The translations under genes and the position numbers were made by a program. A stretch of 64,000 bases of DNA from Terriglobia bacterium (GTDB taxonomy: Bacteria; Acidobacteriota; Terriglobia; Acidiferrales; UBA7541): positions 124,001 to 188,000 of the forward strand of contig JAIQGG010000006.1 of the NCBI GenBank assembly GCA_020072785.1, written 5' to 3'. Shown here in pieces: positions 1,364 to 51,486 of this stretch (position 1 is the stretch's first letter; each line of letters starts with the position of its first letter). The notes under the pieces were generated by a model. That model was not told where the DNA came from. It was given only the letters and a program-made list of their open reading frames with translations, and did no database searches.

Positions 1364-2791
1364 CTAGTCTGCGTGCTCGGTGGTGGCTTCCAACGAGCCG
1401 GCCACCACAGGCCCGGCAACCCGCGTCGCCGGCAGCAGCGTGCGCAGGCCATAGATCGCGAATCCCGCCGCGATGATGAGCACGCCAAAGACCAGCCCGT
1501 TCATCCCCAGGAACTCCTCGCGCTGGCTGCGCACTACCGAGAGGCTCAGCAGCAGCATGGGAAAGACGCCCAGAAGCACGGCCCCGGCCAGGCCCCCGGG
1601 CACGCGAAACGCCCGCCGCAGTTGCGGCTCGCGAATGCGCAGCGCCACCAGCGTCACGAATTCCAGCGACAGGCTGGCCCCGTACAGCATCACGTCCAGC
1701 GTCACCAGGCGCTCGAATCCCAGCCCCAGGCACAGCGCCCAGCCCGTCGCGCAGACCAGGATGGCCACCCACGGCGCCCTCGTCTTAGGGTGCACCTTCG
1801 CGAAAAACTTCGGCAGCATTCCATCCTGGGCCATGGCCAGCGGCAGCCGCGAATAGCTCATCACCAGGGCGTTGAACATCCCGAAGCCGCTCATCATTCC
1901 GCCCAGCACCAGGGCCACGCGCAGCCAGTTCCCGCCGATCAGCCCGGCCAGGTCGGCCCACGACCCGGTTTCGAACGCCGCGGCCGGGATCCCCGTGAGG
2001 TACACCGCCAGCACCGGCAGGATGTAAGTCAGCGAAACGAGGATCACCGCCGCCAGCATCGCCCGCGGATAGGTGCGGTGTGGCCGCTCCACTTCCTGCG
2101 CAATCGTCGAGGCGTTGTCCCAGCCCATGTAGTTCCACATGGCGATGAGCGTGCCCCCCAGCAGCCCCACCGTGGAGGTCACCGGCGCGGTATGCGCCGC
2201 GGCCAGCGCGCCCATCTTAAACGGCGATAACAGCACCACCAGCGCGAACGGCGCCGACAGCAGGAAGAACAGCCACAGCGAGGTCATCCCCACGATCCGG
2301 ATCCCCGCAATGTTCAGCGCCGCGCAGGCCACCACCACGCCCAGCGCCACCAGCACCCCGCGATGCCCGAAGCCGAACCACGGCTCCAGCCGCGTCAGGT
2401 AGGCTACGAACAGCGTCGGGTAGATGGCCATGTCAAATATGCTGGCCACCAGCGACAGCCACGCCTCCTGAAAGCCCCAGAAATTGCCCAGCCCCCGCCG
2501 CACCCACGCGTAGTAGCCGCCCTCGGCCGGCAGCGCACTCCCCAGTTCCCCGATCAGGAACGCCGTCGGCAGGCTCCACAGCAGCGGCGTGAACAGCAAA
2601 ATCAGGATCGCCCGCCCGTAGCCCGCCCCATGCACGATCTCTTCCGTGCCGTAGGTTCCCCCCGACACCATGAAAAACGTGGCGGCGACCAGCGGCCAAA
2701 GGGTCAGCTTGACGATTCGCTTTCTTGCTGGGGGGACTGCGGCGGTTGACCGCTTCGCGGTCACGCAGTCGGTTGACCGCTTCGCGGTCAC
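1364..2791 (-). CDS. APC-superfamily amino acid permease
   Basis: An inner-membrane permease of about 460-475 residues with about 12 hydrophobic segments. The first helix carries the glycine-rich substrate-site stretch MVSGGTYG, typical of APC cation-coupled amino acid or polyamine transporters; GGYYAWVRRGLG follows in helix 2. The substrate cannot be told. The start is uncertain: the frame is open far upstream, and the region just before KLTLWPL consists of two copies of the window's palindromic repeat, read as VTAKRST. GTG at 2791 (first codon of one copy) is used here; GTG at 2764 or TTG at 2833 are alternatives, and none has a good ribosome site. It is divergent from the S9 peptidase gene. 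Confidence 0.8.
   Translation of the reverse strand: MTAKRSTDCVTAKRSTAAVPPARKRIVKLTLWPLVAATFFMVSGGTYGTEEIVHGAGYGRAILILLFTPLLWSLPTAFLIGELGSALPAEGGYYAWVRRGLGNFWGFQEAWLSLVASIFDMAIYPTLFVAYLTRLEPWFGFGHRGVLVALGVVVACAALNIAGIRIVGMTSLWLFFLLSAPFALVVLLSPFKMGALAAAHTAPVTSTVGLLGGTLIAMWNYMGWDNASTIAQEVERPHRTYPRAMLAAVILVSLTYILPVLAVYLTGIPAAAFETGSWADLAGLIGGNWLRVALVLGGMMSGFGMFNALVMSYSRLPLAMAQDGMLPKFFAKVHPKTRAPWVAILVCATGWALCLGLGFERLVTLDVMLYGASLSLEFVTLVALRIREPQLRRAFRVPGGLAGAVLLGVFPMLLLSLSVVRSQREEFLGMNGLVFGVLIIAAGFAIYGLRTLLPATRVAGPVVAGSLEATTEHAD
2745..2791 (+). repeat. Tandem pair of 20-bp palindromic repeats (27-bp period)
   Basis: Two perfect copies of GTTGACCGCTTCGCGGTCAC at 2745-2764 and 2772-2791, separated by 7 nt. 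Each forms a 7-bp stem (TGACCGC/GCGGTCA) with a TTC loop. They lie at the 5' end of the permease gene, where the minus strand reads VTAKRST twice. The 27-bp period equals nine codons, so the pair keeps frame. Confidence 0.9.
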
Positions 2792-3112
2792 GCCTTCGGA
2801 GGATAGCGGGGCGGGAAGCGCTGTGGTTCTCAATTCTTGCTCTTGCGTCCTCCTCGGCGATTTTCGCTTTCGCTCTGAAGCGTGTTCGCATGCGCAGAAT
2901 ACAAGTTTCCTTCCGCCATGCAAGAAGAAAATGCCTTTAGTGACAACTTTTTTTGCGCTCTGAGTGGCGCTCACGTGCCGGCCATCGCCACCCTCCCTGT
3001 GCATGCGCTTTCCCGCATCTTTTTCTGGCTTTCCTCCGTCGCCGCTGGCCGGGCCCTGTGCTAAACTCCGCGCCTTGGTCCGGCATTTCCTGCGGTTTCG
3101 GGAGGCTTGCGT
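2792..3112. other. Divergent intergenic region between permease and S9 peptidase
   Basis: This 321-bp stretch separates the divergent permease and peptidase genes and must hold both promoters. No clear -35/-10 pair was recognised. The only firm signal is the GGAGG ribosome site at 3101-3105 for the peptidase. Open frames on the minus strand continue from the permease into this region, so part of it may be translated if the permease starts further upstream. Confidence 0.5.
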
Positions 3113-5212
3113 ATGAAGATCGCTTCTGGAGTGCTGTTTCTTGCTGCTCTTCTGGGTATTTCGGCCACAGTTTCCGCGCAAGCTCCGCCGCAAGCCCCGC
3201 GCCCCATCACCATTGACGACTACTTCCAGATCCGCGAAGTCAGCGACCCGCAATGGAGCCCGGAGGCCCGTTGGGTCGCCTACACCGTCAAGACGCCCCT
3301 GCTCAAGGACGACAAGAACGAAGAGCGCATCTGGATGGTCCCCGCCGCCGGCGGCGCGCCTGTCGCCCTGACCGCCGAAGGCGTCTCCTCCTCCCACCCG
3401 CGCTGGAGCCCCGACGGCAACTACCTCGCCTTCCTCTCCGCCCGCTCCGGCGGCAAGCAGCAGGTCTGGCTGCTCAACCGCCTGGGCGGCGAAGCCCAGC
3501 GCCTCACCGACACCCCGCAGGACGTCAACGACTTTGCCTGGTCTCCGGACAGCCGCCGCCTGGTCCTGGTTCTCCGCGACGCCTCTCCGGAAGAGCTGGA
3601 AGCCGCCAAAGAAGTTGACCGCTTCGCGGTCACACCTGACAAAGACAAAGACGCGAAGAAAGAGCCCAAAACGCCGCGTCCCTGGGTCATCGACCGCCTG
3701 CAGTTCAAGCGCGACACCGTCGGCTATCTCGACCGCCGCCGCACCCACCTCTATCTCTGCGACCTTGCCTCGAAGAGCCTCACCCAGGTCACCTCCGGCG
3801 ACTATGACGACAGCGATCCCGCCTGGTCGCCCGACGGCCGCTCCCTGGCCTTCACCAGCAACCGCTCCGTCCCCGACCCCGACCACAACTACAACACCGA
3901 CATCTGGGTCGTCGCCGCCGACAACACCGACAAGGGCGCGCATCTCACGCAAGTCTCCACGAACCCCGGCGAAGATCGTTCCCCTGCCTGGTCGCCCGAC
4001 GGCAAATCGATCGCTTTCGTCAGCCAAATCGAGCCGCGCCTGTTCCAGTACGCCACGAAACATCTCGCCGTGGCCCCCGCCGCCGGCGGCGCGGCGAAAC
4101 TCCTCACCTTGGCCCTGGACCGCAACGTCAGCGATCCACACTTCGCTCCCGATGGCGCCTCCGTCTATTTCATCGCCGACGACGACGGCACGCAAAATCT
4201 CTGCCGCATTCCGGTTGCAGGGGGCGAAGTCACGCGGCCCGTCGGCGGCCGGGTAATGGTGAATGGCTATGCCCTCGCCAAATCCGGAGAAATCGCCGCG
4301 CAGATGGCCACCGTTACGCGTCCCGACGAGATTTACGCTCTGTCCGCCGGCCAGCTCACCCAAATCACGCATACCAACGATGCGCTGATGGCGCAGTTGA
4401 AGCTTTCTGAGGGCGAGTACGTCCATTTCAAAAGCAAGGATGGCACCACCGTCAGCGGCTACCTCTATAAGCCCCTCGATTACACCCCTGGCAAAAAGTA
4501 CCCCACCATCCTCCGCCCCCACGGTGGCCCCGTCTGGGCCTACTACGCCGAATTCAGCCACCTCGCCCAGCTCTTCGCCGCCAACGGCTATGCCGTGCTC
4601 TTTCCGAATCCGCGCGGCTCTTCCGGCTACGGACAGAGCTATTGCCAGGCGATCTTTGCGGATTGGGGCAACAAGGACTACCAGGACGACATGGCCATGG
4701 TGGACTATGCCCTTGCCCAGGGGATTGCCGATCCGGACAAGCTCGCCGTCGGCGGCTGGTCCTACGGCGGCATCTCCACCAACTTCATCATCACCCAGAC
4801 CACGCGCTTCAAGGCCGCCATCTCCGGCGCCAGCGAGTTCCTCTACGTCACCAACTACGGCCACGACCACTATCAGCGGGATTGGGAGACCGAGCTGGGC
4901 CTGCCCTGGGAGAATCGCGCGCTGTGGGAAAAACTCTCGCCCTTCAATAAAGTCACGAAGATCGCCACGCCGACGCTGGTCATGGGCGGCAACATCGACT
5001 GGAATGTTCCAGTCATCAATTCCGAGCAGCTCTACCAGTCCCTCAAGCGCCTCGGCATCCCCACCGAGCTCGTCGTCTATCCCGGCGAGTACCACGAATT
5101 CCAGATTCCCTCGCACATCAAAGACCGCCTCGAGCGCTACCTCGCCTGGTACGCCCACTACGTCAAAGGCGATCCAACGCCGGCCAGGCCCGTCGCCAAG
5201 CCCGCAGACTGA
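3113..5212 (+). CDS. Secreted S9-family peptidase (prolyl oligopeptidase/acylaminoacyl-peptidase type)
   Basis: A 699-residue exported serine peptidase. ATG 3113 is chosen because GGAGG lies 7 nt upstream; an upstream TTG at 3107 is unlikely. After the signal peptide (to about residue 24) comes a TolB/WD40-like propeller with repeated WSPDG motifs (about residues 40-380). The C-terminal alpha/beta-hydrolase carries the S9 triad: Ser550 in GGWSYGG, Asp629 in NIDWNVP and His661 in YHEF. Enzymes of this family cut short peptides, often dipeptides or acylated residues, from the N-terminus. Residues 168-174 (VDRFAVT) are encoded exactly by one copy of the palindromic repeat, in a charged variable loop. 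Confidence 0.93.
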   Translation: MKIASGVLFLAALLGISATVSAQAPPQAPRPITIDDYFQIREVSDPQWSPEARWVAYTVKTPLLKDDKNEERIWMVPAAGGAPVALTAEGVSSSHPRWSPDGNYLAFLSARSGGKQQVWLLNRLGGEAQRLTDTPQDVNDFAWSPDSRRLVLVLRDASPEELEAAKEVDRFAVTPDKDKDAKKEPKTPRPWVIDRLQFKRDTVGYLDRRRTHLYLCDLASKSLTQVTSGDYDDSDPAWSPDGRSLAFTSNRSVPDPDHNYNTDIWVVAADNTDKGAHLTQVSTNPGEDRSPAWSPDGKSIAFVSQIEPRLFQYATKHLAVAPAAGGAAKLLTLALDRNVSDPHFAPDGASVYFIADDDGTQNLCRIPVAGGEVTRPVGGRVMVNGYALAKSGEIAAQMATVTRPDEIYALSAGQLTQITHTNDALMAQLKLSEGEYVHFKSKDGTTVSGYLYKPLDYTPGKKYPTILRPHGGPVWAYYAEFSHLAQLFAANGYAVLFPNPRGSSGYGQSYCQAIFADWGNKDYQDDMAMVDYALAQGIADPDKLAVGGWSYGGISTNFIITQTTRFKAAISGASEFLYVTNYGHDHYQRDWETELGLPWENRALWEKLSPFNKVTKIATPTLVMGGNIDWNVPVINSEQLYQSLKRLGIPTELVVYPGEYHEFQIPSHIKDRLERYLAWYAHYVKGDPTPARPVAKPAD
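3614..3633 (+). repeat. Palindromic repeat inside S9 peptidase coding sequence
   Basis: A copy of GTTGACCGCTTCGCGGTCAC with only 1 nt difference from context expected (ends CAC followed by ACC). It is read in frame as VDRFAVT (residues 168-174 of the peptidase) between ELEAAKE and a Lys/Asp-rich loop. Confidence 0.92.
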
Positions 5213-9730: not shown

Positions 9731-11461
9731 GTGAGAGTTTTCAATTTTGTACTGTCACAGATGGCCCTGTTCGGGCTCTTGGCTGCGGGAGCGCCCGCGC
9801 AGTTGACCGCTTCGCGGTCATCCATACAGTCGTCCAGCCAGGCGGCGCCGCCACAGCAAAAGGAGTCGAGCCCGCTCTATCGCATTACCGTCTCGGCGCG
9901 CACCACCAAGGCTATCAACTACCGGCACTTGAGCGGCCCCACGAAGATCGATTTCCGCGGCACCATCCTCCTGCCTTTCGCCCATGGCGTGGCCAAGGTG
10001 GAAAGCAAGCGCGGGGCGGTGCGCATCCAGGCGCAATTTGAAAAGGTCGATCCGGCGACGCGATTCGGGCCGGAATTCCTGACCTACGTGCTGTGGGCCA
10101 TCTCGCCGGAGGGCCGCCCCGACAATCTGGGCGAGGTTCTTCTGGACAATAAGGGAAAGTCCAAGCTGGACGTCACGGCTCAACTGCAGGCCTTTGCGCT
10201 GATTGTGACCGCGGAGCCCTATTTCGCGGTGACCCGGCCGAGCGAAGTGGTGGTCATGGAAAACGTGGTGCGCCCGGACACCGTCGGCAACGTGGAAGAG
10301 ATGGACGCCAAGTTCGACCTGCTGCAGCGCGGGCAGTACTCCTACGTGGAAGCCAGCGCGCAGCCCCCGGTGCTCGACCCGGGAACGCCGCTCGGACTTT
10401 TCGAGGCCCGCAACGCAGTGCAGATCGCGCGTGCCGCGGGAGGCGAGCATTACGCGGAAGACAGCTTTCGCAAGGCGGCGCAGCTCCTGCACCAGGCCGA
10501 GGACATGCACAAAGGCCGGGCCGACAAGAAGCAGGTGGAGATGACCGCGCGGGAAGCGGTGCAGACCGCGGAGGATGCACGCGCGATTACGGTCAAGCGC
10601 CGCGATGAGGAAAAAGTGGAGATGGAGCGGCGGGCGGCGGCGGAACGCGAGGCCCAGGCGCGGGCCGATGCCGAAGCGGCGCAGCGCGCGAAACTGGAGG
10701 CGCAACTGGCCACCGAGCGGGCGGCGCGGGAACGCGCGGAAGCGGAAGCCGCGCGTGCCGCGGCGCTGGCGCAGCAACAGGCGGCGCAGGCCCAGGCCGA
10801 GCAGTCGCGGCTGGCCGCGGAGCAGTCGGCGCGGGAAAAGGCGGAAGCCGACGCGGCGCGCGAGGCGGCGCAGGCCCAGCAACTGAAGGCCCAGGCCGAA
10901 GCCGAGCAGTCGCGGCTGGCCGCGGAACGCGCGGCCCGGGATAAGGCCGAGGCGGAAGCGGAAACGGCGAAGGCGCGCAAGGCCACGGAACAGGCGGAGG
11001 CGGAGAAGGCCGAGCTGCGCCAGCGGCTGCTGAACCAGCTCAATACCATCCTGCAGACCCGCGACAGCGCCCGCGGCCTCATCGTGAACATGTCCGATGT
11101 GCTCTTCGACACCGGGAGCTCGACGCTGAAACCCGGCGCGCGCGAGAAGCTGGCCAAGATCTCCGGCGTGGTCCTGGCCCATCCCGGCTTGAATTTGCAG
11201 GTGGAGGGGCATACCGACAGCGTGGGCAGCGACGAAATGAACCAGCAGCTCTCCGAACGCCGTGCCGCTTCGGTGCGCGACTTCCTGGTGCAAGAGGGGG
11301 TTCCGGAGGCTGCGGTCACCTCGCGGGGTTTCGGCAAGACGCAGCCGGTAGCCTCCAACGATACGGCCGAAGGGCGCCAGAGAAACCGCCGCGTCGAACT
11401 CGTGGTCACCGGCGACGCCATCGGCTCGACGGCCAAGGAAGCTGCCGCCTCCCCGAAGTAG
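9731..11461 (+). CDS. OmpA-family envelope protein with long coiled coil
   Basis: A 576-residue exported protein. GTG 9731 is the start, with GGAG 6 nt upstream. Signal peptide about 1-23 (ends GAPAQ). Residues 45-230 form a soluble domain of unknown fold. Residues 280-430 are a long Ala/Glu/Gln/Arg coiled coil (AEREAQARAD, AAREAAQAQQ). The C-terminal OmpA/MotB domain (about 445-565) has VLFDTGSSTLKP, VEGHTDSVGSDEMNQQLSERRA and GRQRNRRVEL, which bind peptidoglycan. It probably links the outer envelope to the cell wall. One palindromic-repeat copy encodes LTASRS right after the predicted signal cleavage site. Confidence 0.88.
   Translation: MRVFNFVLSQMALFGLLAAGAPAQLTASRSSIQSSSQAAPPQQKESSPLYRITVSARTTKAINYRHLSGPTKIDFRGTILLPFAHGVAKVESKRGAVRIQAQFEKVDPATRFGPEFLTYVLWAISPEGRPDNLGEVLLDNKGKSKLDVTAQLQAFALIVTAEPYFAVTRPSEVVVMENVVRPDTVGNVEEMDAKFDLLQRGQYSYVEASAQPPVLDPGTPLGLFEARNAVQIARAAGGEHYAEDSFRKAAQLLHQAEDMHKGRADKKQVEMTAREAVQTAEDARAITVKRRDEEKVEMERRAAAEREAQARADAEAAQRAKLEAQLATERAARERAEAEAARAAALAQQQAAQAQAEQSRLAAEQSAREKAEADAAREAAQAQQLKAQAEAEQSRLAAERAARDKAEAEAETAKARKATEQAEAEKAELRQRLLNQLNTILQTRDSARGLIVNMSDVLFDTGSSTLKPGAREKLAKISGVVLAHPGLNLQVEGHTDSVGSDEMNQQLSERRAASVRDFLVQEGVPEAAVTSRGFGKTQPVASNDTAEGRQRNRRVELVVTGDAIGSTAKEAAASPK
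9802..9821 (+). repeat. Palindromic repeat at the signal-peptide junction of the OmpA-like gene
   Basis: GTTGACCGCTTCGCGGTCAT, one mismatch (last base) from the consensus. The gene reads it in a second frame, as LTASRS at residues 25-30, directly after the predicted signal peptide. Confidence 0.9.
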
Positions 11462-11585: not shown

Positions 11586-11631
11586 GCGGAAAGGGGATGT
11601 GGGGCACATGCCTCGCGACTGCAACGCATTT

Positions 11632-11684
11632 TATGAATACAAAGATCGAAGAGAGATTCCGCGCTTCGCTCGAATGACGGTGTT
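11632..11684 (-). repeat. Dispersed repeat, copy 1 (TCATTC-CGAACGAAG type)
   Basis: The minus strand reads AACACCGTCATTCGAGCGAAG..GGAATCTCTCTTCGATCTTTGTATTCAT, which matches the copy at 16631-16683 across about 50 bp with scattered changes and opposite orientation. A shorter relative lies at 35745-35795. It is non-coding repeat sequence between convergent genes. Confidence 0.7.
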
Positions 11685-11716: not shown

Positions 11717-13039
11717 CTAGTGGGCCGGTTGCGGAGCGCGGGCCAGGAGGGTTTCAGTGCCCTGCAGGTGGAGGACCAGGATCTTGCCGTTGGAACGATA
11801 GCTGCCGCCGGTGGCGGTGGTGGCTTCGAGGACCGGGTCCGCCGGCAAAAAGTAATGGGATTCCGCCAGGCGGCTTGCCGTGGCCAGGCATTCCCCGACG
11901 AAGTCGCGCTCCTGGTCCACTTCCGGATCGATCTTGTGGGTGAGGGACCATTTATGCTGGTCTTTCTCGATGCCGATGTCGTGCGTCGCGGCGCCCGCCC
12001 AGACCGGATAGCCGGCCACCTCGTAGCCGGTCTTCCAGATGCGCAGGTGGTGACGGCGGGTCACCGTGGAAGCGGTGTCTTCCTTGGCATAGCCGTAATC
12101 CTGGGGACGGCCGAAGAGGAAGAGACGGCTCATGGGCATGGCCACATTGTTTTTGGGATCGTGCGCGGCGTGCCAGAAGGCATGTGGTTTGGAGCGGATG
12201 GTTTCAATCCAGCCGGCCTGTGCGAAAGCCTCTTCGAGCTGCTCCTGGGTGCCGACGAAGACCAGGTTGACCATGTCCCCTTCGTGGCCCTGGCCGTTGA
12301 GAACGCGGCGGGGAAGCAGCGTGGTGAGTTGCTCTAGGGTGACTTGGTTTGCCGGGGTTGCCGCGGTGGGCATCGCTGTCGGCCCTGCAGGCTGGGCCGA
12401 TTCCGCCGTGAGCGCCCGGTTGAATCTGGCGGCATCCAGGGGGAAGTTCCCGTGCACGTGGGCGGTCACTTCCGTGCCCTGCAGCAGGACGCTTTCCTGA
12501 CCGCGCAAAAAGAGCAGCGCCGGGGCCGCCGGATAGAAAGCCAGGGCGGTGACGGCCATGCCCGTGGCCATAACGGTCTTGTGTCCTCCGCCGCGAACTT
12601 CTTTCTCCGAGCGCAGGGCCACGGTCTGGCCGGTGCTTAGACGGATGGAATCGAGGCGCAGTTTGAGCTTGCCGCCGCGCCCCATGCGGCGCTTCTTGTG
12701 CACGGCCGTGATGGTGGCTTGGGCCACGCTGCCGCGCGGGATCACCGGAAACCCGTTCAGCAGGACGTCGTAGATCACTTCAAAGTCCACCGTATCGCCG
12801 GGATGGGCGTCGGCGGAAGAGACGGTACGCAAGGCGCGCAGCTTGAGGGGCGTGCCGTTGGCGAGGACGAACGGGTGGGAGGCGCTGGCCGCGGCGGCCG
12901 TACGGGGAATTTCCGTGGCGGTTGACTGCTTTGCCGTCACACTGACAAGGGACTGCGCGGCGGCAGGAAGCGCGCCCGCCAGTAGCAGGCTCAGAAGTAT
13001 GGCCGGCCGAATTTGCAGAAGTCTACACACGGCTCTCAC
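11717..13039 (-). CDS. Exported LssY-C domain protein
   Basis: A 440-residue protein; GTG 13039 starts a hydrophobic signal peptide ending near AAAQ (residue 29). The middle (about 55-200) contains a conserved region of unknown fold with a Lys/Arg-rich segment (KKRRMGRGGKLK). The C-terminal part (about 250-410) matches the LssY-C domain: DMVNLVFVGTQEQLEEAF, FLFGRPQDYGY, RHHLRIW, VWAGAATHDIGI and HKIDPEVDQERD. In other bacteria this domain is often joined to membrane phosphatase or DedA regions; here it is secreted alone. Function unknown. Residues 34-40 (VTAKQST) come from a decayed palindromic repeat. Confidence 0.75.
   Translation of the reverse strand: MRAVCRLLQIRPAILLSLLLAGALPAAAQSLVSVTAKQSTATEIPRTAAAASASHPFVLANGTPLKLRALRTVSSADAHPGDTVDFEVIYDVLLNGFPVIPRGSVAQATITAVHKKRRMGRGGKLKLRLDSIRLSTGQTVALRSEKEVRGGGHKTVMATGMAVTALAFYPAAPALLFLRGQESVLLQGTEVTAHVHGNFPLDAARFNRALTAESAQPAGPTAMPTAATPANQVTLEQLTTLLPRRVLNGQGHEGDMVNLVFVGTQEQLEEAFAQAGWIETIRSKPHAFWHAAHDPKNNVAMPMSRLFLFGRPQDYGYAKEDTASTVTRRHHLRIWKTGYEVAGYPVWAGAATHDIGIEKDQHKWSLTHKIDPEVDQERDFVGECLATASRLAESHYFLPADPVLEATTATGGSYRSNGKILVLHLQGTETLLARAPQPAH
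12921..12940 (+). repeat. Decayed palindromic repeat inside the LssY-C gene
   Basis: GTTGACTGCTTTGCCGTCAC, three changes from the consensus, one of which breaks a stem pair. Read on the minus strand as VTAKQST at residues 34-40, just after the predicted signal cleavage site. Confidence 0.75.
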
Positions 13040-13919: not shown

Positions 13920-13966
13920 GTTGACCGCTTCGCGGTCACAGAAATAGTTGACCGCTTCGCGGTCAC
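13920..13966 (+). repeat. Tandem pair of palindromic repeats upstream of aroF (27-bp period)
   Basis: Two perfect copies of GTTGACCGCTTCGCGGTCAC at 13920-13939 and 13947-13966, separated by AGAAATA. The period of 27 bp is the same as in the 2745-2791 pair, though the 7-nt spacers differ. The last copy ends 47 bp before the aroF start. Confidence 0.9.
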
Positions 13967-14013
13967 ACGAAAAATCGTTTGCCGTCCCCAAAGTACTGTA
14001 AAGGGACCTGACC

Positions 14014-16630: not shown

Positions 16631-16683
16631 ACACCGTCATTCCGAACGAAGTGAGGAATCTCTCTTCGGTTTTTGTATTTATG
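16631..16683 (+). repeat. Dispersed repeat, copy 2 (TCATTC-CGAACGAAG type)
   Basis: ACACCGTCATTCCGAACGAAG and the following GTGAGGAATCTCTCTTCGG..TTTGTATTTATGA match, in inverted orientation, the copy at 11632-11684. It lies in the dctA/beta-lactamase intergenic region together with an isocitrate lyase remnant. Confidence 0.7.
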
Positions 16684-16716
16684 AGCTGCCTTCCAGGAAG
16701 ATTTTTTTGGTACACC

Positions 16717-27409: not shown

Positions 27410-27495
27410 CCCAGCGCTTGCGCGCTGGGCTAACGTGTGGCGCGCCTCCGGACCCAGCGCTTCCGCGCTGGGCTAACGTGTGGCGCGCCTACGGC
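27410..27495 (+). repeat. Two tandem 43-bp hairpin repeats
   Basis: Units at 27410-27452 and 27453-27495. Each begins with the hairpin CCCAGCGC-TT(G/C)C-GCGCTGGG, then CTAACGTGTGGCGCGCCT and CGGA/CGGC. They differ at only a few bases. The same unit is part of the composite copy at 25984. The rest of the gap 27301-27594 shows a possible glgA promoter only. Confidence 0.85.
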
Positions 27496-32549: not shown

Positions 32550-33761
32550 ATGATTTCCTACCAACAGGCGCGGCAGCTGGTGATTCGCGAAGTCTCCGCG
32601 CTGCGGAAGACGACGGGGGCGGAGCGCCGCGCGCTGCGCGAGGCGCTGGGGTATGTGCTGGCGGAGAGCGTGGCGGCGGACCGGGAGTATCCGCCGTTTG
32701 ACCGGGCGACGCGCGACGGGTATGCGGTGCGCGCGGCGGAGGCCCAGCCGGGAGCGGCGCTGCCGTGCTTCGGGGAATGGAAGGCGGGCGATGCGTCGCT
32801 GGTACCGCTGGTGCCGGGGAGCTGCGTGCAAATCATGACCGGAGCGGGTGTGCCGCCGGGGGCGGATGCCGTGGTGATGGTCGAGCACACGTCGCGCGAG
32901 GGCGAGCGCGTGAAGTTTGCGCGCGCGGCGGTGGCGGGGCAGAACATCGTGCCGCGGGGCAGCGAGGCCAGCGCGGGGGCGATCCTCCTGCGGGCGGGGC
33001 AGCGGCTGGGCTTTGCGGAGATCGGGCTGGCGGCGCAGGCGGGGGCCTGCGAGGTGGCGGTGCACCGGAAGCCGCGGGTGGCCATCCTTTCCACGGGTGA
33101 CGAAGTGGTGGCGATGGAGGATACGCCCGGAGCGTTTCAGATCCGCAACAGCAACAGCCTTTCGCTGGCGGCGCAGGTGCGCATCGCGGGTGGCGAACCG
33201 GTGGAACTGGGCAACGCGCCGGACCGCATGGAGGTGCTGCGCTCGCACATCGAGGAGGGGTTGCAGGCGGATGTGCTGGTACTTTCGGGCGGGGTGTCCA
33301 TGGGGAAGTATGATCTGGTGGAGCCGGTGCTGCGCGAACTGGGGGCGGAATTCTTCTTCGATGCGGTGGCCATCCGGCCCGGCAAGCCGGCGGTGTTCGC
33401 AATCTGCCAGGGCAAGCCGGTGTTCGGGCTGCCGGGGAATCCGGTGTCCACGATGGTGACCTTTGAGCTGTTCGCGACGGCGGCGGTGGACCTCTTGAGC
33501 GGGATGGAGGCGCGGGAACTGCCCCTGCTGCGGGCGCGCCTGGGCGAGGCGGTGCGGCAGAAGAATGCGCTGACGCATTTTCTGCCTGCGCGGCTGGAGT
33601 GGAGCAGCGGAGAAGCGGTAGTGCGGGAGTTGCACTGGAAAGGGTCGGGGGATGTGGCGGCGCTGGGGCGCGCCAACTGCTTTCTGGTGGTGGATGGCGA
33701 CCAAGGCGAGCTGGCGGCGGGGGAGTGGGGGGTGGTGTTGCCGCGGCGGGATGTGCTCTGA
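32550..33761 (+). CDS. moeA: Molybdopterin molybdenumtransferase
   Basis: A 403-residue cytosolic enzyme that inserts molybdate into adenylylated molybdopterin. ATG 32550 gives the typical MISYQQARQLVI start; ATG 32541 would add three residues. Conserved blocks: FDRATRDGYAVRA, GDASLVPLVPGSCVQIMTGA, DAVVMVEHTS, RVAILSTGDEVV, SGGVSMGKYDLVEP and VFGLPGNPVSTMV. It opens a molybdenum-cofactor unit with moaC, a response regulator and mog, all co-oriented. Confidence 0.94.
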   Translation: MISYQQARQLVIREVSALRKTTGAERRALREALGYVLAESVAADREYPPFDRATRDGYAVRAAEAQPGAALPCFGEWKAGDASLVPLVPGSCVQIMTGAGVPPGADAVVMVEHTSREGERVKFARAAVAGQNIVPRGSEASAGAILLRAGQRLGFAEIGLAAQAGACEVAVHRKPRVAILSTGDEVVAMEDTPGAFQIRNSNSLSLAAQVRIAGGEPVELGNAPDRMEVLRSHIEEGLQADVLVLSGGVSMGKYDLVEPVLRELGAEFFFDAVAIRPGKPAVFAICQGKPVFGLPGNPVSTMVTFELFATAAVDLLSGMEARELPLLRARLGEAVRQKNALTHFLPARLEWSSGEAVVRELHWKGSGDVAALGRANCFLVVDGDQGELAAGEWGVVLPRRDVL

Positions 33762-33771
33762 TGGGGCGAGA

Positions 33772-33864
33772 CGAAATTCGAAATACGAAATGCGAAACTC
33801 GAAATAGGAAATTCGAAATACGAAATTCGAAACGCGAAATACGAAACTCGAAATTCGAAATTCG
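33772..33864 (+). repeat. GAAATTC/GAAATAC short-period repeat between moeA and moaC
   Basis: About 93 bp built from near-repeats of (T/A)CGAAAT-type units, mostly 7-9 bp apart (CGAAATTCGAAATACGAAA and so on). It is AT-rich within GC-rich sequence. The frame has no sensible protein. It increases the moeA-moaC gap to 168 bp. Confidence 0.85.
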
Positions 33865-45105: not shown

Positions 45106-45294
45106 AAAGCTTCGAGTCCACCTGTCAGGGGGGCACCGTCCAGCGGCCCACGGCCCGGTATTTCGTTAGATTCGCGGCGCGGCCTCGCGGGTACGGAGTA
45201 CTTCTGCCATGCGCACCGCTCCCGGCGGCGGCCCAGGCGAATTTTCCGGCGCGTTGCGGCAAGCCGGAGCGAACTGCGCGCGACTATTGTATGC

Positions 45295-45314
45295 GTGACC
45301 GCGAAGCGGTCAAC
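45295..45314 (-). repeat. Palindromic repeat, intergenic copy
   Basis: GTGACCGCGAAGCGGTCAAC, the exact reverse complement of the consensus. Flanking GTATG and CATAC extend the inverted repeat with one bulge, giving a longer hairpin than other copies. Confidence 0.9.
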
Positions 45315-51452: not shown

Positions 51453-51472
51453 GTTGACCGCTTCGGGGTCAC
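51453..51472 (+). repeat. Palindromic repeat just after the acyl-CoA dehydrogenase stop
   Basis: GTTGACCGCTTCGGGGTCAC, one base from the consensus; the change breaks one stem pair. It begins 5 bp after the stop codon. Confidence 0.85.
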
Positions 51473-51486
51473 GCCTACGGAAGATT

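Follow-up and report, generated by a model that had tools for sequence, protein, structure and literature searches.

The window (the whole 64,000-nt stretch of DNA that was analysed) contains an S9 peptidase gene with an exact palindrome in its reading frame, which raised the question of whether this segment is inserted DNA and, if so, of what kind. A sequence-only reading had proposed an in-frame insertion at window 3614-3633, encoding VDRFAVT as residues 168-174 and lying in a variable loop. The open reading frame, which runs from an ATG at 3113 to a stop at 5212, placed the palindrome and the peptide exactly there. The protein was assigned to the prolyl oligopeptidases by Pfam PF00326 (E 2.8e-48) and PD40 propeller repeats, and the best Foldseek match of its model was 8wt1, an S9 carboxypeptidase of Geobacillus (E 1.4e-47). 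The features of the locus are:

3113..5212, + strand: S9 prolyl-oligopeptidase gene with the insertion, 699 aa (ORF, Pfam PF00326 and PD40, Foldseek).
3614..3640, + strand: inserted 27-bp unit, with hairpin part 3614-3633 (GTTGACCGCTTCGCGGTCAC) and 7-nt tail 3634-3640 (ACCTGAC), coding VDRFAVTPD; exactly these 27 bp are absent from the G007 orthologue.
3641..3646, + strand: target flank AAAGAC, matching RWNGAY and also found in the empty site (flank comparison with G007).

Alignment with S9 orthologues from the genus or family (about 30 loci) supported the insertion, as every one of them lacked VDRFAVT and the opposite outcome, a peptide carried by all, did not occur. The nearest orthologue, in the sister genome G007 (91% amino acid identity), was without exactly 27 bp, the nine codons VDRFAVTPD. 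At the DNA level, G007 read GCCGCCAAAGAG joined directly to AAAGACAAG, whereas the window read GCCGCCAAAGAA, the insert GTTGACCGCTTCGCGGTCACACCTGAC and then AAAGACAAA; in a longer reading, AAGCCGCCAAAGAG-AAAGACAAGGAC in G007 corresponded to AAGCCGCCAAAGAA-GTTGACCGCTTCGCGGTCACACCTGAC-AAAGACAAAGAC in the window. The gain was a multiple of three, as the earlier reading had argued it must be, but by 27 bp and not by the 21 bp it had derived, and its hint at a target site also failed, with no target-site duplication seen and the seven extra bases forming part of the unit. The 27-bp gain at the empty site ruled out a 21-bp unit or a 21-bp target duplication, and a seven-base target duplication was ruled out as the 7 nt after the hairpin were unlike the 7 nt before it.

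The placement in a variable loop agreed with structure prediction. In the AlphaFold model of the S9 protein (23-sequence alignment; mean pLDDT 78), pLDDT was below 50 at residues 170-208, with the surrounding propeller strands at about 85-95. The insert started where a predicted helix (159-172) ends and continued into the low-confidence stretch, and length and sequence varied freely among the S9 orthologues around this position. The model suggested that the insert stretch is probably disordered, and we infer that the peptidase tolerates the nine additional residues.

Alignment of sampled copies defined the unit as 27 bp, consisting of a 20-nt hairpin part and a looser 7-nt tail with the weak consensus RCATACA; the copies read, about 145 with the stretches around them, came from contigs C1-C3 and the window. 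The palindrome, GTTGACCGC-TTC-GCGGTCAC (TGACCGC-TTC-GCGGTCA), formed a 7-bp stem and a 3-nt loop. Adjacent copies were direct and 27 bp apart in 42 of 45 pairs. Stem pairs were changed on both sides in 16 cases against 4.0 expected in this genome, and in 18 against 4.5 at related loci, and 22 of the 34 two-sided stem changes resulted in Watson-Crick pairs; slid controls gave 2 to 9. The counts include related copies and do not represent independent events. Genus relatives held versions with both variable stem pairs changed, e.g., GTCGGCCGC..GCGGCCGC. The stem is thus maintained by compensatory changes. The unit was open in four reading frames out of six, with TGA closing one frame per strand. 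No Rfam family covered the unit; the only Rfam matches in the window were two Acido-Lenti-1 RNAs (RF01687; 25984-26029 and 27453-27498, + strand), members of a repeat family that has another copy at 27410.

The 17-nt palindrome core was present in the window in 7 exact copies, as TGACCGCTTCGCGGTCA on either strand, and a degenerate pattern with up to 2 mismatches gave 10 matches against 0.69 expected, a number that none of 100 shuffles reached. Besides the S9 copy, the following units were located:

2745..2771, + strand: 27-bp unit that opens a direct doublet; G007 has a single unit at this place, a difference of 27 bp from the two present in this genome.
2772..2798, + strand: 27-bp unit, second of the doublet, then GAGGAT at 2799 (from sequence).
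9802..9828, + strand: 27-bp unit, tail CCATACA, then GTCGTC (from sequence).
12921..12947, + strand: degenerate unit with 3 mismatches in 20 (from sequence).
13920..13946, + strand: 27-bp unit with tail AGAAATA that opens a direct doublet (from sequence).
13947..13973, + strand: 27-bp unit, second of the doublet, tail ACGAAAA, then ATCGTT; the sister genome also has a doublet at this position.
45288..45314, - strand: 27-bp unit, tail GCATACA, then ATAGTC; two units here in the sister genome.
51453..51479, + strand: 27-bp unit with one mismatch, tail GCCTACG, then GAAGAT; shared with the sister genome and perfect there.

Other repeats in the window included short tandem repeats of ACGAAATNCGAAAT type (period 7/14; 33757-33864) and a 54-nt inverted repeat, 80% complementary, with its arms 5 kb apart (11619-11672 and 16643-16696).

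Across the whole genome (3.73 Mb, 11 contigs), the 15-nt core with up to 1 mismatch was found in 263 copies compared to 5 for the reversed control, and the 20-mer with up to 1 mismatch in 203 compared to 0. Copies were mostly intergenic, on both strands and dispersed over the genome. On C2, the stretch from about 230 to 723 kb held two unit places among those listed in about 490 kb, against approximately one per 15-20 kb elsewhere on that contig. The 20-mer count was 203 in this genome (G000), 167 in G007 and 55 in G005, with 0-6 in the other 33 genus members and zero in the remaining 25 genomes from the family, order and class; a relaxed pattern raised the other genus members to at most 18 and left genomes outside the genus at control level. 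In 84,980 species genomes, matches to the exact 20-mer were nearly confined to acidobacterial MAGs with the labels gp2 and SRVP_26, apart from isolated ones elsewhere. G007 itself appears to be isolate SRVP_26 (JAIQEV contigs), as the SRVP_26 loci fall on its contigs. Single exact 20-mers at L110, L121 and L124 belonged to Paenarthrobacter, Blastocatellia and a Nitrospirae-labelled MAG contig, and chance, transfer or misbinning may account for them. The exact match was absent from the viral contigs searched for a phage carrier. GC skew gave no consistent signal of replication-strand bias after smoothing, and the raw local correlation with skew probably reflects co-orientation with genes. The literature searched mentioned neither the unit sequence nor the VDRFAVT peptide.

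Comparison with the sister genome, in which both assemblies probably derive from metagenomes, indicated how copy number changes. Indels of at least 15 nt next to copies were multiples of 27 in 17 of 25 cases (15 of 23 without two double-counted sites), as opposed to 1 of 30 elsewhere in the same alignments, and the modal indel at copies was 27. Clean single-unit differences were found at unrelated places, namely the S9 gene, L168/L058 and L185/L129; an alignment read by eye gave another at L150/L073, and a 3-unit array (81 bp) at L149 was wholly absent from the sister genome. Differences ran both ways, as the sister genome had two units against one here at window 45288-45314. Elsewhere in the comparison, a 682-bp segment (L188 1-682, L117 5064-5745) was 100% identical between the sisters, with adjoining sequence at 87%.

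The sequence that followed the units was also informative. RWNG stood at +27 in 69 of 105 terminal copies compared to a background of 5.9% in the same flanks, and RWNGAY followed 30 of 105 compared to 0.8%. The target, RWNG, is short and degenerate, a point against the mobile-element reading. The 5' flank of the aligned sampled copies showed no conserved signal, and the empty sites examined showed no target duplication. Copies were gained or lost in 27-bp steps directly 5' of RWNG(A), with the target present in empty sites. Since the first six bases of the unit, GTTGAC, themselves fit RWNGAY, an existing unit can serve as the target of a new one, which gives rise to direct arrays with a 27-bp period. 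Adjacent tails were more alike than random pairs (0.59 compared to 0.42) and identical in 4 of 39 cases, indicating that tandem duplication, as opposed to new insertion, accounts for part of the array growth.

We regard the palindrome as probably a copy of a non-autonomous, very small mobile element with a unit of 27 bp, which would act while folded as a single strand. Read on the complementary strand, it runs RTCNWY, first border, TGTATGY-GTGACCGC-GAA-GCGGTCA-AC, second border; both borders carry RTCNWY, from the host flank on the left and from the unit's own last bases, GTCAAC, on the right. By this symmetry, an HUH-type enzyme would cut on both sides of the hairpin. A single-strand nuclease or transposase of that type, supplied in trans, could cut the folded strand 3' of RTCNWY on each side, whereupon the 27-nt strand would be released or copied and then joined behind another RTCNWY. 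With such a site at its own end, the element would allow a new unit to land beside an old one, producing head-to-tail 27-bp arrays, the size of which slippage or unequal exchange may also alter. Insertions within genes would persist as nine-residue VDRFAVTxx inserts in tolerant loops, as in the S9 peptidase. Considerably more tentative is the further proposal that this single 27-nt hairpin is complete as a transposition unit, targets itself by its first bases and so stacks head to tail, is moved in trans by an enzyme outside the recognised REP/IS200 Y1 transposases, and seeds in-frame nine-codon peptides.

Copies inside genes were assessed with gene calls based on open frame and GC3. By a strict test (open frame, high GC3), 7 of 103 sampled arrays scored as intragenic, six clearly in frame and the seventh on the opposite strand (L139). 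Five single units used the VDRFAVT frame, in the S9 peptidase, an S15/CocE-like hydrolase, a TilS-like protein (where the copy reads VDRLAVT), a YdjM-like membrane protein and an MFS transporter; the S9 name alone came from a profile search, and the others from sequence reading. An isoaspartyl-peptidase-like gene carried two units as a 54-bp insertion in a different frame, and its orthologues in G005 and G016 were without exactly the 18 residues of those two units. A length of nine codons (27 = 9 x 3), together with the four open frames, lets insertions into genes survive as nine-residue inserts. Arrays stood directly before a Shine-Dalgarno-like motif and start codon in 10 of 103 cases (e.g., L137, L148, L015) compared to 1.4% of random positions. 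This excess may arise because RAGGA resembles the target, together with the intergenic bias, and arrays before start codons could affect translation of the next gene.

The enzyme is the point at which the main alternative enters, that of an ordinary REP moved by the genome's own RAYT/TnpA-Y1 through a link not visible as flanking copies. We hold this to be possible, albeit doubtful. The unit is a short hairpin with hundreds of copies and an intergenic bias, and a cut on either side of one hairpin would resemble TnpA-REP, whose in vitro cleavage sites on the two sides of a single hairpin are the same dinucleotide (PMC8266576). The genome also encodes Y1 proteins that match NCBIfam REP_Tyr_transpos. 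Three Y1 genes exceeded the Pfam cut-off, and a fourth, weak one at L261 1294-1845 (genome C2:1033050-1033598) encoded a divergent Y1-like protein, below that cut-off, with a partial match to the same NCBIfam family. L021 and L023 had terminal inverted repeats GGGTGCCCCA.., and RAYTs with such repeats (TIRYT type) have been described for Acidobacteria (PMC3733652); L022 was bounded by GTAG-type hairpins ATGTAG..GCCGGGCTTTAGCCCGGC.

Against this alternative, the unit has no GTAG tag and forms no inverted doublets, and no Y1 locus checked was bounded by it, the nearest copies being more than 1.2 kb away at a spacing not unlikely by chance. Searches with PF01797 at E up to 10 likewise found no gene bounded by the repeat. 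The L023-type RAYT was present in all copy-rich genomes (G000, G007 and G005), which favours the link, but genes of this type are bounded by terminal inverted repeats and also occurred in the copy-poor genomes G002, G003, G008, G011-G013 and G022. Despite nearly as many copies, G007 had only one detected Y1 gene, flanked by terminal inverted repeats, and no orthologue of the L022- and L261-type genes. A RAYT as mobiliser, whether judged by flanking copies or by presence and absence, was not supported by the Y1 loci and the gene content of G007, and Y1/RAYT searches of this genome and the sister genome found no enzyme tied to the unit.

Several RAYT-related loci were observed along the way. RAYT-like genes at L021, L196 and L197 had terminal inverted repeats GGGTGCCCCA.. 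of 31-38 nt (TIRYT type). A GTAG-type REPtron was found at L226 1319-2239, with its RAYT at genome C1 420545-421063 bounded by ATGTAGNNGCCGGGCTTTAGCCCGGC hairpins, and at L182 a 27-bp unit adjoined a GTAG-type hairpin of the ATGTAGNNGCCGGGCTTTAGCCCGGC type.

A route through an RNA intermediate or without a transposase, or by enzymes of another family (a tyrosine recombinase or a reverse transcriptase, for example), appeared unlikely to us. It would fit the finding that no DNA transposase was linked to the unit, and the size and structure match SDRs; spread through RNA or without a transposase was reportedly proposed for the cyanobacterial SDR elements of Elhai et al. 2008. The matching RTCNWY borders, however, would suit strand transfer better than RNA retro-insertion.

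It is highly improbable that the unit is immobile, a minisatellite changing by slippage only with old dispersed copies. The identical adjacent tails in 4 of 39 pairs and the array sizes that differ between sisters would agree with slippage, yet presence or absence of single units at the unique sites S9, L168 and L185 contradicts it, and such sites, together with the flank site preference and lineage-restricted copy number, require dispersal. That VDRFAVT is a selected protein motif and not inserted DNA can practically be dismissed. Use of one frame in five genes would favour it, but the copies are identical as DNA, lie on both strands, mostly between genes and in at least two frames, and are absent from all S9 orthologues.

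A mobile 27-bp element was our preferred reading, and it can be set against known systems. The unit behaves like a variant of very small palindromic mobile elements of the REP, RPE or SDR kind. It is too short for a MITE, and the empty sites examined had no target-site duplication. A CRISPR array occupies one locus with unique spacers of 20-40 nt, whereas this unit is dispersed, mostly as 1-3 units, with 7-nt tails that share a consensus. IS200/IS605 elements are similar in that a matching short sequence serves as left flank and right element end on one strand and in that no target is duplicated; they differ in having two ends around a transposase gene, where the unit is one hairpin of 27 nt.

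The hairpins of class 3 TnpA-Y1 have a 5' foot CnGA and number about 600 in Solibacter usitatus (PMC6006769). Compared by description, they share with the unit the occurrence in Acidobacteria, the high copy number and a short 5' foot ending in GA (here TTGA); the foot differs (TTGA, not CnGA), and our Y1 searches recognised no class 3 gene. A relationship between the Solibacter CnGA hairpins and the unit is possible. GTAG REPs and REPINs with RAYT (PMC3733652, PMC3116915, PMC8266576) are likewise hairpins of 20-30 nt in hundreds of copies, mostly intergenic and sometimes intragenic, but the unit has ends GTT.. and ..CRCATACA without GTAG, no inverted doublet and no RAYT flanked by it. The CGTC REPs and the Rickettsia RPE-4 and RPE-6 (PMC3733652) are similar in being short palindromes without a dedicated transposase that insert in frame into ORFs. 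CGTC REPs have stems of 8-9 bp with AT pairs at the base, loops of 4-5 nt, a CGTC tag and HH dimers, and direct dimers are absent or negligible in REPs (PMC3733652); the unit has 7 bp, 3 nt, no CGTC and HT arrays.

Mobile DNA of a length divisible by three adds peptides to proteins, as in Rickettsia and here in a free-living soil phylum, and VDRFAVT-like inserts in unrelated proteins will be encountered when such genomes are annotated automatically. The cyanobacterial SDRs of Elhai et al. 2008 are said to be 21-27 nt long, dispersed and recently mobile, with a hairpin under compensatory changes and no known enzyme. By this description, they resemble the unit, which is 27 nt, dispersed, recently mobile by its empty sites and likewise folded into a hairpin with compensatory changes. 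Other accounts describe SDRs as about 20 bp and possibly mobile (PMC2884548) or cite Elhai et al. 2008 on those of cyanobacteria (PMC3116915). The differences lie in the host, Acidobacteriota and not cyanobacteria, and in a single 27-bp type with a 3' target RWNG(A), head-to-tail arrays arising from its own target and in-frame insertions for which empty sites are documented. Since such sites define its ends, length and target, the unit would be among the smallest mobile units so characterised, and it offers a tractable case for how REP-, SDR- and RPE-like palindromes without a dedicated transposase spread.
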